A stretch of DNA of 32,822 nt from assembly GCA_001786835.1 (NCBI GenBank), contig MFTO01000015.1:1-32822 (forward strand), in the 5' to 3' direction. The first letter of the stretch is position 1. Every line of letters starts with the position of its first letter. Positions 3,028-18,698 of this stretch are shown here, piece after piece. The stretch comes from Candidatus Nomurabacteria bacterium RIFCSPHIGHO2_01_FULL_40_20 (GTDB taxonomy: Bacteria > Patescibacteriota > Minisyncoccia > Phycocordibacterales > UBA9973). Both the position numbers and the translations under genes were made by a program. The notes below the pieces were generated by a model, which worked only from the letters and a program-made list of their open reading frames with translations, was not told where the DNA came from and ran no database searches.

Positions 3028-3195
3028 CCCTTCAGGCCGGGAATGCTCTTCCCCCCACTAAATCTATTTCACCAATCGGGACGCGAATATAATTCCCGGT
3101 TCTGTTTGCCCCCCTTTGAATTAGGAGGCTTTCACGTGTGTCGGGCGCGATAGGCCTTCGTCACGTGGACTTTTTCTTCGAATCGAAAAAGTCAC
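3000..3195 (-). ncRNA. Predicted structured small RNA of about 195 nt, family unknown
   Basis: This gene-free stretch on the minus strand has a promoter, a series of paired segments and an intrinsic terminator. Hairpins in order along the RNA: GACTTTTTC with GAAAAAGTC (3194-3170), two CACGTG halves (3169 to about 3135), GCCTCC with GGGGGC around position 3120, CGGGA with TCCCG around 3085, GGGAA with TTCCC around 3045, and the terminator stem 3027-3009. No reading frame of note covers it. The size resembles 6S RNA, but the ends do not pair into the long 6S-type rod. No SRP, RNase P or tmRNA signature is visible. Identity is unknown. Confidence 0.5.
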
Positions 3196-9886: not shown

Positions 9887-10078
9887 TTAAACAGATTTAA
9901 ATGTCCTTGTGGAATATTCCACTTTTTCTTCCCATACTTTCAACCTATATCCAAGACTTCTCCTTTTTTTACGCGTGCCTGACATACTTTTAGGTTTTTT
10001 AATGATTTGGACTAGAATTCTCTTCAACTTTACTACACTTTCCCTTTTTGTCAAATAAAAATTTAATTTATTCCTCAA
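9887..10078 (-). CDS. Doubtful small basic ORF after rmuC
   Basis: The 63-codon frame overlaps the end of rmuC by 11 bp and encodes a Lys/Arg-rich peptide with no recognisable domain. Inside it, minus-strand TTGACA, 16 nt and TAAAGT look like a promoter. That could drive a shorter internal ORF from the ATG beginning MSGTRKKRRSLGYR (32 residues). The DNA around 9750-9890 is very A/T-rich and shows nothing else. Equally it may be non-coding. Confidence 0.25.
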   Translation of the reverse strand: MRNKLNFYLTKRESVVKLKRILVQIIKKPKSMSGTRKKRRSLGYRLKVWEEKVEYSTRTFKSV

Positions 10079-11120
10079 TTCTTGGTCTATCTATTGCAAT
10101 AGAGGAAAGCTCCGGCGAAGTGCCGGCGATGCGAAGCACGTCTTTGTCTATTTTTTTGAGTTCTTTGCCGGAAGCGTTGTAGTGGTTCACTACGGTGGAT
10201 AACGATGTGCCGAGCTTGGCGTGATACTCGTCAAAGCTTTTTAGGTGTCGTCCTAAGTCTTCTACCTTTTTAATTATCTCTTTAGCGCTCTCTTCTATTT
10301 GGAGCGCCTTGAGCCCTTGCAACACAGTTTGCAAGTAGGCGAGAAAAGAAGTAGGGGAGGTGATGATGACTTTATATTTACCGGATGCGCGCTGGATTAG
10401 GGATTCATTTTCTTCATCATCTTTTAGTCCACCGATTTTGTTTGTGATTAAATCGTAGTAAATTGCTTCATGAGGGATGAACATAAAAGCAAAATCCGTG
10501 GTGCCTTGGGTGGGTTGCACGTATTTTGCGGTCTCGGTGATTCTATTTTTCAAGTCGTTTACAAAAAGTGTCTCCAGTCTTTTCTTCTCTGTGGGGTCGC
10601 GCTCTTCTGCCATCTTATTATAATTTTCAAGTGAGAATTTTGAATCTATGGGAATGATTTTATCTTTCACAAAAACCACGGCGTCAACGATAGTGCCGTC
10701 GGGAAAAGGGTATTGCATTTGGTATGAGCCGGGAGGAAGCACATTTTTCAAAACAGTTTCCAGATAATATTCGCCGAGGATTCCGCGCTGTTTCGGATTT
10801 TTCAAAATATTTTCCAAGCTCTGGAGTTGATCTGCAAAAGAGATGACTTGCTTGTTGGTCTCATCAAGGCGGGTCAAGCGCTCAGTCACGTCGCGAATTA
10901 TTTTATTTGATTCACTAGAGTGAAATTTCAAACTCTCATTCATCTGCTTGTGGGTCTCGCCGATTTTAGAGTCCACTGTTCTAGTGAGCTCAATCATTTG
11001 CTGGTGGAGTAGTCCCAAGGCCGAACTATCATTTCCGCCTTCTTTTTTCTTATTCAAAATGAGATACACCAGTATCCCTCCACCCACAACCCCGATGATT
11101 ATCCATGCAATGTTTGACAT
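10068..11120 (-). CDS. rmuC: RmuC-family protein (DNA recombination)
   Basis: The 350-residue protein has an N-terminal membrane helix (about 5-23), a coiled-coil stretch (about 38-105), and the RmuC nuclease-like core beginning NPKQRGILGEYYLETVL. The core continues with VDAVVFVKDKIIPIDSKF (the D...DSKF restriction-nuclease-like pattern) and FMFIPHEAIYYDL. RmuC limits inversions and rearrangements at repeats; its biochemistry is poorly known. The length is somewhat below E. coli RmuC. TAAAAT lies 6 nt before the ATG, preceded by TGC, which suggests a leaderless mRNA. Its upstream neighbour on the same strand is the exonuclease at 11923-12642, now separated by an inserted unit. Confidence 0.9.
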   Translation of the reverse strand: MSNIAWIIIGVVGGGILVYLILNKKKEGGNDSSALGLLHQQMIELTRTVDSKIGETHKQMNESLKFHSSESNKIIRDVTERLTRLDETNKQVISFADQLQSLENILKNPKQRGILGEYYLETVLKNVLPPGSYQMQYPFPDGTIVDAVVFVKDKIIPIDSKFSLENYNKMAEERDPTEKKRLETLFVNDLKNRITETAKYVQPTQGTTDFAFMFIPHEAIYYDLITNKIGGLKDDEENESLIQRASGKYKVIITSPTSFLAYLQTVLQGLKALQIEESAKEIIKKVEDLGRHLKSFDEYHAKLGTSLSTVVNHYNASGKELKKIDKDVLRIAGTSPELSSIAIDRPRIEE

Positions 11121-11177: not shown

Positions 11178-11187
11178 GTATAATCTT

Positions 11188-11229
11188 CTAAAAATAATGT
11201 TTTAATGTATAAATCCAATCTTTGTGGAT
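11188..11229 (-). pseudogene. Duplicated 3'-end fragment of the exonuclease gene
   Basis: Read on the minus strand this encodes ...KDWIYTLKHYF-stop, matching the last residues of the intact exonuclease (EDWIYTLKYYLEK). Over 36 aligned bases (11194-11229 against 11935-11970) 30 are identical, including 16 in a row (GTATAAATCCAATCTT). Several differences are silent. An in-frame stop lies only a few codons upstream, so this is a remnant. The copies flank the hairpin/Cas2-like unit as direct repeats, as expected if the unit integrated at the 3' end of the gene. Confidence 0.7.
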
Positions 11230-11250: not shown

Positions 11251-11284
11251 TTACCTAACTCAAGCGGTCGCAGGAATTAGGTAA
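11251..11284 (+). repeat. Hairpin repeat, copy 1
   Basis: TTACCTAACT, a 14-nt loop containing AGCGGTCGCA, then AATTAGGTAA (one change from the perfect complement). The same architecture, orientation and loop length recur at 11889 and 18659. Confidence 0.85.
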
Positions 11285-11312
11285 TTTAGGTTTATTGATT
11301 TATAATCACAGT

Positions 11313-11918
11313 ATGGGTATTTTAGAAAAGGAAATAAAAGCAAAGGACAAAAGAAAAAATATTCAAAAGATAATCTTGGGTACTATTTTTACTGCAGGGA
11401 TGTTGGGCGTGATGGTCGTGGCGCCGAATGTGCTTTCTGTAATCAGACAATTAGAGAAGGGTTCTAAAAGAAAAAAGAATCTAAAATATTCAATCAATGA
11501 ATCTTTCACTCGCTTAAAGGAAAAAGGTTTAATCGAGATAGTTGAAATCAACGGTAAGAAAGTTGCGAGAGTCACTTCAAAAGGAGAGGACAAACTTGAT
11601 TTTTTAGAAAGACATAGTTTCAAATTAAAAATTCCAAAGAAATGGGATGGTCGTTGGAGGGTAGTAAGTTTTGATATAAAAGAGTCAAAAAAAGGAATTC
11701 GTGAACGGTTGAGATTTACACTTATTCAAATAGGTTTTGTAAAACTTCAAAATAGTGTGTGGGTTTATCCCTACGATTGCGAGGACTTCATTTCTTTACT
11801 TAAAGCGGATTTTAAAATAGGGAAGGATGTTTTATATATAATAGTGGAAAAGTTAGAAAATGACTGGCACCTAAGAAAGTTTTTTAATTTACCTAACTCA
11901 AGCGGTCGCAAAAGTTAG
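11313..11918 (+). CDS. Winged-helix protein with Cas2/PaaX-C-like domain
   Basis: The 201-residue protein has a basic N-terminus, a hydrophobic helix (about 20-44), and a winged-helix region (about 50-98, YSINESFTRLKEKGLIEI). A C-terminal ferredoxin-like domain (about 108-195) begins WDGRWRVVSFDI and contains LQNSVWVYPYD. This matches the Cas2/VapD-type fold also found in PaaX C-termini; Asp121 aligns with the Cas2 metal-binding Asp. Such proteins are often auto-annotated as Cas2, but no CRISPR array or Cas1 is present. TATAAT (11301-11306) lies 6 nt before the chosen ATG, so the mRNA may be leaderless. An upstream TTG at 11295 is less likely. The last residues (NLPNSSGRKS) are encoded by hairpin copy 2. 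Confidence 0.75.
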   Translation: MGILEKEIKAKDKRKNIQKIILGTIFTAGMLGVMVVAPNVLSVIRQLEKGSKRKKNLKYSINESFTRLKEKGLIEIVEINGKKVARVTSKGEDKLDFLERHSFKLKIPKKWDGRWRVVSFDIKESKKGIRERLRFTLIQIGFVKLQNSVWVYPYDCEDFISLLKADFKIGKDVLYIIVEKLENDWHLRKFFNLPNSSGRKS

Positions 11919-11922
11919 GTAA
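11889..11922 (+). repeat. Hairpin repeat, copy 2
   Basis: TTACCTAACT and AGTTAGGTAA form a perfect 10-bp stem around the 14-nt loop CAAGCGGTCGCAAA. It contains the stop of the Cas2-like gene and abuts the stop of the convergent exonuclease (11923). T-runs flank it on the plus side, so it could also act as a terminator here. Confidence 0.88.
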
Positions 11923-12642
11923 TTATTTTTCTAGATAATATTTCAGCGTATAAATCCAATCTTCGTCGATGCCTTCACCGTTTAGTTTTTGGGCGAGCAA
12001 CCATTCCAGATATCCACGGTCAGTTTTGATGACTTCTTCAATTCTCTTGCCGTTGTGTTTGCCGAATTTGAAAGTGTGGAGTAGAGACGGATGACTAGAG
12101 ATTTCTATCATTTTTTCTATCGCGCCCTCTTTATCCAATTCGTTTTCCCCCATAACTTTTTTCAAAAGTCTCTCAAAAAGTTTCTCCAGTACGAGCACGT
12201 CTCCGAGCGCATCGTGCGCCGTGGCGTCTATTTCAATTTCTAAAAGATATCGCAAATATTGCAGATTGTATCGCTCTATTTTTTCTTCCTTATCTAAATA
12301 TCTTGCCACGCGGAGCGTGCAGATAAAATGCGAGGGCTCTATGCCTTCTTTTTTAAACATTATTAAATCAAAAGGAGCGTTGTGGGCGACGGCTATCACA
12401 CTTTCACCTTCAAAAAGTTTTTTGATTTTTTCCTTATCTCCACTCTCCGCAAAACTTTTTTTATCTGCCACCATTTTGTTGGTAATATGATGCACCGCGG
12501 ATGCCTCCGGCGGGATTTTCTTCTCCGGCTTATACAGCGCAGAAAAAGTTTCTTTTCCATTTTTAAAAGCCAATTGGCATAAAAAATCGCCTTCGGTATT
12601 GCCCGTAGTTTCAGTATCGAAGAATACAAGTTTTTTACTCAT
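11923..12642 (-). CDS. DnaQ-like 3'-5' exonuclease with C-terminal DUF3820-like extension
   Basis: The 239-residue protein is a DEDDh exonuclease: ExoI FFDTETTG, ExoII HNAPFD and ExoIII HDALGDV. This family trims DNA or RNA 3' ends, as in polymerase III epsilon or RNase T. A C-terminal segment (about 190-215), FKFGKHNGKRIEEVIKTDRGYLEWLL, looks like the small DUF3820 module found after such nucleases. TAAAAT preceded by TGC lies 6 nt before the ATG (leaderless mRNA likely). The 3' end has been duplicated at 11188-11229, and its stop touches a hairpin repeat. Together with rmuC downstream it suggests a DNA-maintenance pair. Confidence 0.88.
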   Translation of the reverse strand: MSKKLVFFDTETTGNTEGDFLCQLAFKNGKETFSALYKPEKKIPPEASAVHHITNKMVADKKSFAESGDKEKIKKLFEGESVIAVAHNAPFDLIMFKKEGIEPSHFICTLRVARYLDKEEKIERYNLQYLRYLLEIEIDATAHDALGDVLVLEKLFERLLKKVMGENELDKEGAIEKMIEISSHPSLLHTFKFGKHNGKRIEEVIKTDRGYLEWLLAQKLNGEGIDEDWIYTLKYYLEK

Positions 12643-18659: not shown

Positions 18660-18698
18660 AATTACCTAACTATAGCGGTCGCAGAAGTTAGGTAATTT
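18659..18698 (+). repeat. Hairpin repeat, copy 3 (solo)
   Basis: AAATTACCTAACT and AGTTAGGTAATTT form a perfect 13-bp stem around the 14-nt loop ATAGCGGTCGCAGA. Stem core, loop length and AGCGGTCGCA match the two copies around 11.3-11.9 kb. No Cas2-like gene is attached. No T-run follows, so it is not simply a terminator. Confidence 0.88.

Follow-up and report, generated by a model that had tools for sequence, protein, structure and literature searches.

Cas2 proteins are known as partners of the Cas1 integrase, as nucleases, and for a fold that is also that of the VapD toxin, and to our knowledge none has been described as the only protein that a mobile element encodes. The described systems that are closest in layout to the locus presented here are the REP/RAYT (TnpA-REP) systems, in which two palindromic hairpins bracket one gene, matching solitary hairpins lie between genes, and the type of gene and the type of hairpin vary together (PMC2817692, PMC8266576). 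The RAYT protein is an HUH Y1 enzyme (Transposase_17, PF01797). Elements of the IS200/IS605 type are also small, with a single gene and subterminal hairpins, and they make no larger target duplications (PMC2817692). In PaaX regulators, a winged helix is followed by a PaaX_M Cas2-like domain (PF20803), and CRISPR Cas2 proteins contain a ferredoxin-like domain with a conserved aspartate in the first strand.

The locus shares something with each of these. It lies in a stretch of 32,822 nucleotides from a Candidatus Nomurabacteria genome, the whole of which was analysed and is referred to as the window. Its arrangement of gene, bracketing hairpins, and solitary hairpins is that of REP/RAYT, whereas its protein is winged-helix and Cas2-like, solitary copies are far fewer, target-duplication-like repeats are found, the unit itself occupies many sites, and its ends were scored mostly as direct (in 97 units, with 27 inverted, a weak call because the ends are near-palindromes). 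Unlike IS200/IS605 elements, it has no Y1_Tnp domain, and long repeats surround some insertions. Compared with PaaX, the family is shorter, keeps a Cas2-type aspartate, is bracketed by hairpins, and is present in multiple copies. The long target duplications recall the duplication of the CRISPR repeat at spacer integration; unlike in CRISPR systems and casposons, the Cas2-like domain is fused to a winged helix and there is no Cas1-type integrase in 60 genomes of the genus.

The most probable explanation is that the locus belongs to a large family of minimal mobile elements in Patescibacteria, each measuring ∼0.67 kb and made up of a palindrome, a gene for a winged-helix and Cas2-like protein, and a matching palindrome. 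They are best read as having a REP/RAYT-like layout, a protein that is unrelated, and target duplications that are long. An earlier description of such elements was not found among the open-access papers searched, a set without preprints and many subscription journals. The hosts are tiny, uncultivated Patescibacteria, and the protein family is not known to move DNA by itself. If the units move with their Cas2-like proteins, they represent a new kind of DNA mobility that needs one gene and extends across a phylum; this would point to a further connection of Cas2 with mobile DNA, and would show the spread of hairpins in some of the smallest genomes. A construct of 0.7 kb would be enough to test mobility directly.

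The hairpin-bracketed gene in the window

The original prediction, that two 34-bp hairpins flank one gene and that the second of them encodes the end of its protein, is borne out exactly by the sequence. Both hairpins have the same orientation and 14-nt loops, and the second contains the last residues of the protein (...LPNSSGRKS) and its stop codon TAG at 11916-11918. The features of the region are as follows.

10068-11120, minus strand: rmuC-like gene, across the insertion from the exonuclease (named from reading the sequence)
11186-11229: target-duplication-like direct repeat (44 bp, 80% identical) of the exonuclease 3' end, left copy
11251-11284, plus strand: upstream hairpin (left end), exact match, fold z -2.6, of a type with 22 copies and compensatory pairs
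11313-11918, plus strand: gene for the winged-helix and Cas2-like (PaaX_M) protein, 201 amino acids, stop included
11889-11922, plus strand: downstream hairpin (right end), which overlaps the last codons of the gene and abuts the exonuclease stop codon
11923-12642, minus strand: DnaQ-like exonuclease, the target gene (named from reading the sequence)
11929-11970: right (native) copy of the 44-bp repeat, within the exonuclease C-terminus
18662-18695, plus strand: solitary hairpin of the same type, 2 bp past the stop codon of an ABC-transporter ATPase gene

As an exact match, the hairpin pattern occurs three times in the window and never in 100 dinucleotide shuffles, and a fourth copy lies on another contig of the same genome (G000:C8:19110-19143). 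When folded as single-stranded DNA and compared with shuffles, the upstream, downstream, and third copies give z values of -2.6, -3.8, and -5.3, respectively. The genome (G000, 78% complete) has six further paralogues of the gene, making seven family copies in total, several of which have their own, different pair of hairpins.

Domains and conserved residues of the protein

The prediction of a winged-helix and Cas2-like protein is confirmed by matches to PF20803 PaaX_M (E 1.3e-19) and to the Cas2 model TIGR01573 (E 6.9e-6; 26.2 bits, cut-off 24.5), while the match to a second Cas2 model, PF09827, is below its cut-off. The PaaX equivalog TIGR02277 (279 positions) gave 33 bits where its cut-off is 264.55, with only model positions 38-136 aligned. 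A Pfam scan of 69 family members found PaaX_M in all 69 and Y1_Tnp in none of them. In the AlphaFold model of the window protein (mean pLDDT 74.8), the Cas2-like domain, at residues ∼111-180, is confident (85-96 in this block) and the N-terminal part is weak. In fold, the protein is closest to E. coli PaaX (8a39, the best match) and to Cas2/VapD proteins. The list obtained with VIA-align is filled by PadR and MarR winged helices and so says little about the Cas2 part beyond two informative entries, 3exc and 8ia4; phmmer found no match for the Cas2-like part in the PDB.

Three residues, G91, D121, and R130, are invariant in the family. D121, the Cas2-type aspartate, is kept in 82 of 82 aligned copies and aligns with the aspartate of 3exc, a Cas2-family RNase; the same position is glutamine in the two PaaX regulators compared. 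In the alignment, this invariance supports D121 as a candidate nuclease-type site. It need not mean transposition, since D121 is also kept in an apparently fixed clade of the family that is linked to dnaK.

Paired hairpins across Patescibacteria

The family occurs in 58 of 60 genomes of the genus, with one to eleven copies in each of those, and in 63 of 192 genomes sampled across the phylum. In the pooled Patescibacteria, two matching palindromes bracket 124 of 155 gene copies, compared with 5 of 155 when upstream flanks are matched at random with downstream flanks. Across the phylum-wide sample, 61 of the 70 copies score above the 99% level of the mismatched-flank null. The units have a length of ∼670 bp. 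On reading the flanks, the palindromes are alike within one copy and unlike between families, with centres that include GCGGTCGC, GCATATGC, GCTATAGC, ACGGCCGT, and ACACGTGT. Named matches for one subfamily come from Candidatus Nomurabacteria and one Colwellbacteria. Phages and viral contigs contained no relative of the family, plasmids gave only distant PaaX-like regulators, and a search of PHROGs returned no useful match.

The palindrome is bipartite: positions 1-4 and 10-17 from the centre pair well, and positions 5-9 less so. A comparison of both ends of each unit gave 62 compensatory differences, with 11 expected (maximum 21), and in the window hairpin type (22 copies) one pair is seen as GC, CG, and AU, although kinship and the symmetry of DNA may feed such counts, which alone do not prove a folded strand. 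An alignment of the 22 copies of this type shows no GTAG head. The two hairpins within a unit have 30 of 36 bases in common, more than the 24 of 36 shared between units with 60-69% identical proteins, so the two ends evolve together. At one locus (L011), an extra near-perfect palindrome of 50 bp, of the hairpin type of that locus, is present at 3058-3107, ∼1 kb from the unit.

The clade linked to dnaK provides a built-in control. Its 15 copies (support 1.0) have no hairpin pair, and in the 14 detected cases the gene is divergent to a dnaK-like gene. These loci are:

L008 (own genome, C11), L031-L034, L036, L038-L040, L055, L056, L079, L131, and L133

The paired hairpins thus track the patchy, multi-copy members and not the family as such. 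Several members of the clade have a single palindrome in the common upstream region, with a similar centre, like CAAGTATTTCGCGACCGCGAAATACTTG. A regulatory role for this palindrome is plausible, and the proteins are candidate regulators of dnaK that are related to the mobile proteins.

Insertion sites and direct repeats

Flanks are unrelated in 203 of 279 pairs of homologous units, and full-length homology between units ends at or near the hairpin edges; in the pair L028/L052, for example, 701 bp of homology run from edge 0 to edge +1. Sites that are filled in some species are empty in others, the comparison here being with other species and not with sister strains. The site between the exonuclease and rmuC genes has a unit in the window, G014, and G053, and a solitary hairpin in G001 and G035, and it is empty in G041, G049, G011, and others, where the two genes are directly adjacent. 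The rpoD site has a unit in 4 of 30 genomes examined, including G035; in G055 and others it is empty, and rpoD is directly followed by its convergent, dsbA-like neighbour. At the level of species, the units have attributes of transposable elements, namely different sites, sharp ends, and empty sites.

No near-identical copies were found at two sites, the closest pairs at different sites being ∼80% identical, and units at the exonuclease, rpoD, and trmD sites recur in several species. Movement is therefore slow, or much of the present distribution is inherited. Units or hairpins of differing types are seen in different species at the trmD end (L026-L028, L030, L046, L085) and at the fmt end (L084, L092), which are either insertion hot spots or the places of old, inherited insertions.

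Direct repeats of 24-79 bp are present outside the hairpins at 8 of 122 testable loci, where they beat all 1,220 random flank pairs, and are not detectable at the others. The window repeat, for instance, has a score of 24.5, compared with a maximum of 20.5 among the random pairs. The eight loci are:

rpoD end, G035: repeat of 57/58 bp
kinase gene end, G053: repeat of 52 bp
trmD end, G011: repeat of 79 bp, 75% identical
long reading frame, G211: repeat of 78 bp, 83% identical
another reading frame, G236: repeat of 50 bp
rnhA-like gene start, G178: repeat of 34 bp
exonuclease end, window: repeat of 44 bp, 80% identical
helicase-like gene, own genome: repeat of 24 bp

These repeats look like target-site duplications that degenerate with age. 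Both their length and their distance from the hairpin (4-94 bp) vary, so the termini of the unit are placed only approximately.

Solitary hairpins

Hairpins without the gene were counted by pattern search, with totals tallied by hand from tables. Of the 60 genomes, 11 have the window type, at a total of 24 places, and at 16 of these the gene is absent. The TAGCATTAG type was found at ∼76 places in 19 genomes, ∼50 of them (about two thirds) without the gene; reversed-pattern controls for both types gave none. Solitary hairpins are dispersed at intergenic positions in low copy number (1-12 per genome), and most are 0-22 bp from a stop codon. Those examined have no flanking repeats. In six genomes, TAGCATTAG hairpins are present with no cognate pair visible. 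Solitary hairpins may be non-autonomous copies, remnants left when the gene between two hairpins was lost, or structures that are kept for a purpose such as termination.

Proposed mechanism and alternative explanations

The core of the original prediction, a REP/RAYT-like mobile unit, is strongly supported by the layout (124/155 against 5/155), boundaries, empty sites, repeats, and solitary hairpins; the likeness fails in that there is no HUH enzyme and the duplications are long. We infer that the Cas2-like protein does the moving. Searches for Cas1 were negative in 60 of 60 genomes of the genus, with positive search controls, and no Y1 transposase was matched in the window's own genome, the assembly of which is 78% complete and may lack a helper enzyme. 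The leading proposal is therefore that the Cas2-like protein acts as the catalyst, with a separate helper as a less likely possibility. The winged helix would recognize the palindromes, as its fold and the co-variation of gene and hairpin suggest, and dimerised Cas2-like domains could bring the two ends together. The acidic site of Cas2 type, by itself or together with repair enzymes of the host, might then nick the ends and the target at widely spaced positions, and gap filling would produce the long duplication. Bound to the upstream palindrome, the protein could also control its own gene, and solitary hairpins would be non-autonomous copies or remnants after gene loss. Taken further, the units would form a new class of bacterial transposon, in which a winged-helix Cas2-like nuclease mobilises a pair of bipartite hairpins without Cas1 or an HUH, DDE, serine, or tyrosine recombinase and leaves target duplications of tens of bases, and the sister clade linked to dnaK would descend from them by domestication or be a relative, used as a regulator; for this fuller claim we see roughly even chances.

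The same protein could be a PaaX-type regulator, with palindromes on both sides as double-stranded operators for autoregulation and with ordinary horizontal transfer and recombination to spread the units. Its closest fold is E. coli PaaX, a regulator, and it has a winged helix-turn-helix. A TATAAT-like box lies no more than 30 bp from the upstream centre in 64 of 124 units, compared with 23 downstream, and the upstream hairpin, often having such a -10-like box, may double as an operator. The single upstream palindrome of several dnaK-linked members, with the same kind of centre, also fits regulation. However, in nearly every unit a second palindrome lies at the stop codon or beyond it, solitary copies sit after stop codons and not in promoters, and the compensatory change among GC, CG, and AU at one position fits pairing better than contacts with a fixed half-site. 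Together with the empty sites, the boundaries at the palindromes, and the repeats of gene ends outside them, these observations make pure regulation unlikely. Termination is a further possibility, in which hairpins or other mRNA-end structures happen to follow genes and the Cas2-like gene is unrelated to them. The position of solitary hairpins immediately past stop codons fits this, as do the A that often precedes the stem and the T that often follows it. Hairpins following unrelated genes, which had been expected to mark terminators, were found in part; yet these are of the family's own types, in a genus where 58 of 60 genomes carry the family. The same type of hairpin also stands upstream, over the promoter of the gene, its sequence tracks the gene family, the dnaK-linked clade is without pairs, and window-type stems are AT-rich and weak (-5 to -10 kcal/mol), so that we consider termination scarcely credible.

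Units might also be non-autonomous and be moved in trans, for example by a Y1 (HUH) transposase, with a Cas2-like protein that only regulates or protects. Y1 transposases are present in 43 of 60 relatives, and the hairpin-bracketed layout is that of REP/RAYT. Against this, there was no Y1 match in the window's own genome (78% complete), in G026 (86% complete), or in G024, the latter two of which carry hairpins or units, and each unit retains a gene from this family together with a hairpin type of its own. Long repeats, moreover, are not products of IS200/IS605 (PMC2817692), and movement in trans is very improbable.

Hairpins within and beside other genes

Genes of Rickettsia carry palindromic elements inside them. 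As with these elements and with MITEs, the palindromes here are short, lie at the ends of genes, and in the case of miaA are in frame within the gene; unlike in those cases, a cognate bracketed gene is identified. The solitary hairpin in miaA is at approximately the same place in three species (L251 in G002, L259 in G057, and L262 in G035). Large cysteine-rich (zinc-finger-like) genes with ends like YCEKCYQQEVY are repeatedly followed by hairpins (L246-L248 in G002, and L253, L256, L258, L263, and L264). In G002, the cysteine-rich genes at L246, L247, and L248 are bracketed by hairpins, and genes of this type are possibly cargo or parts of composite units.
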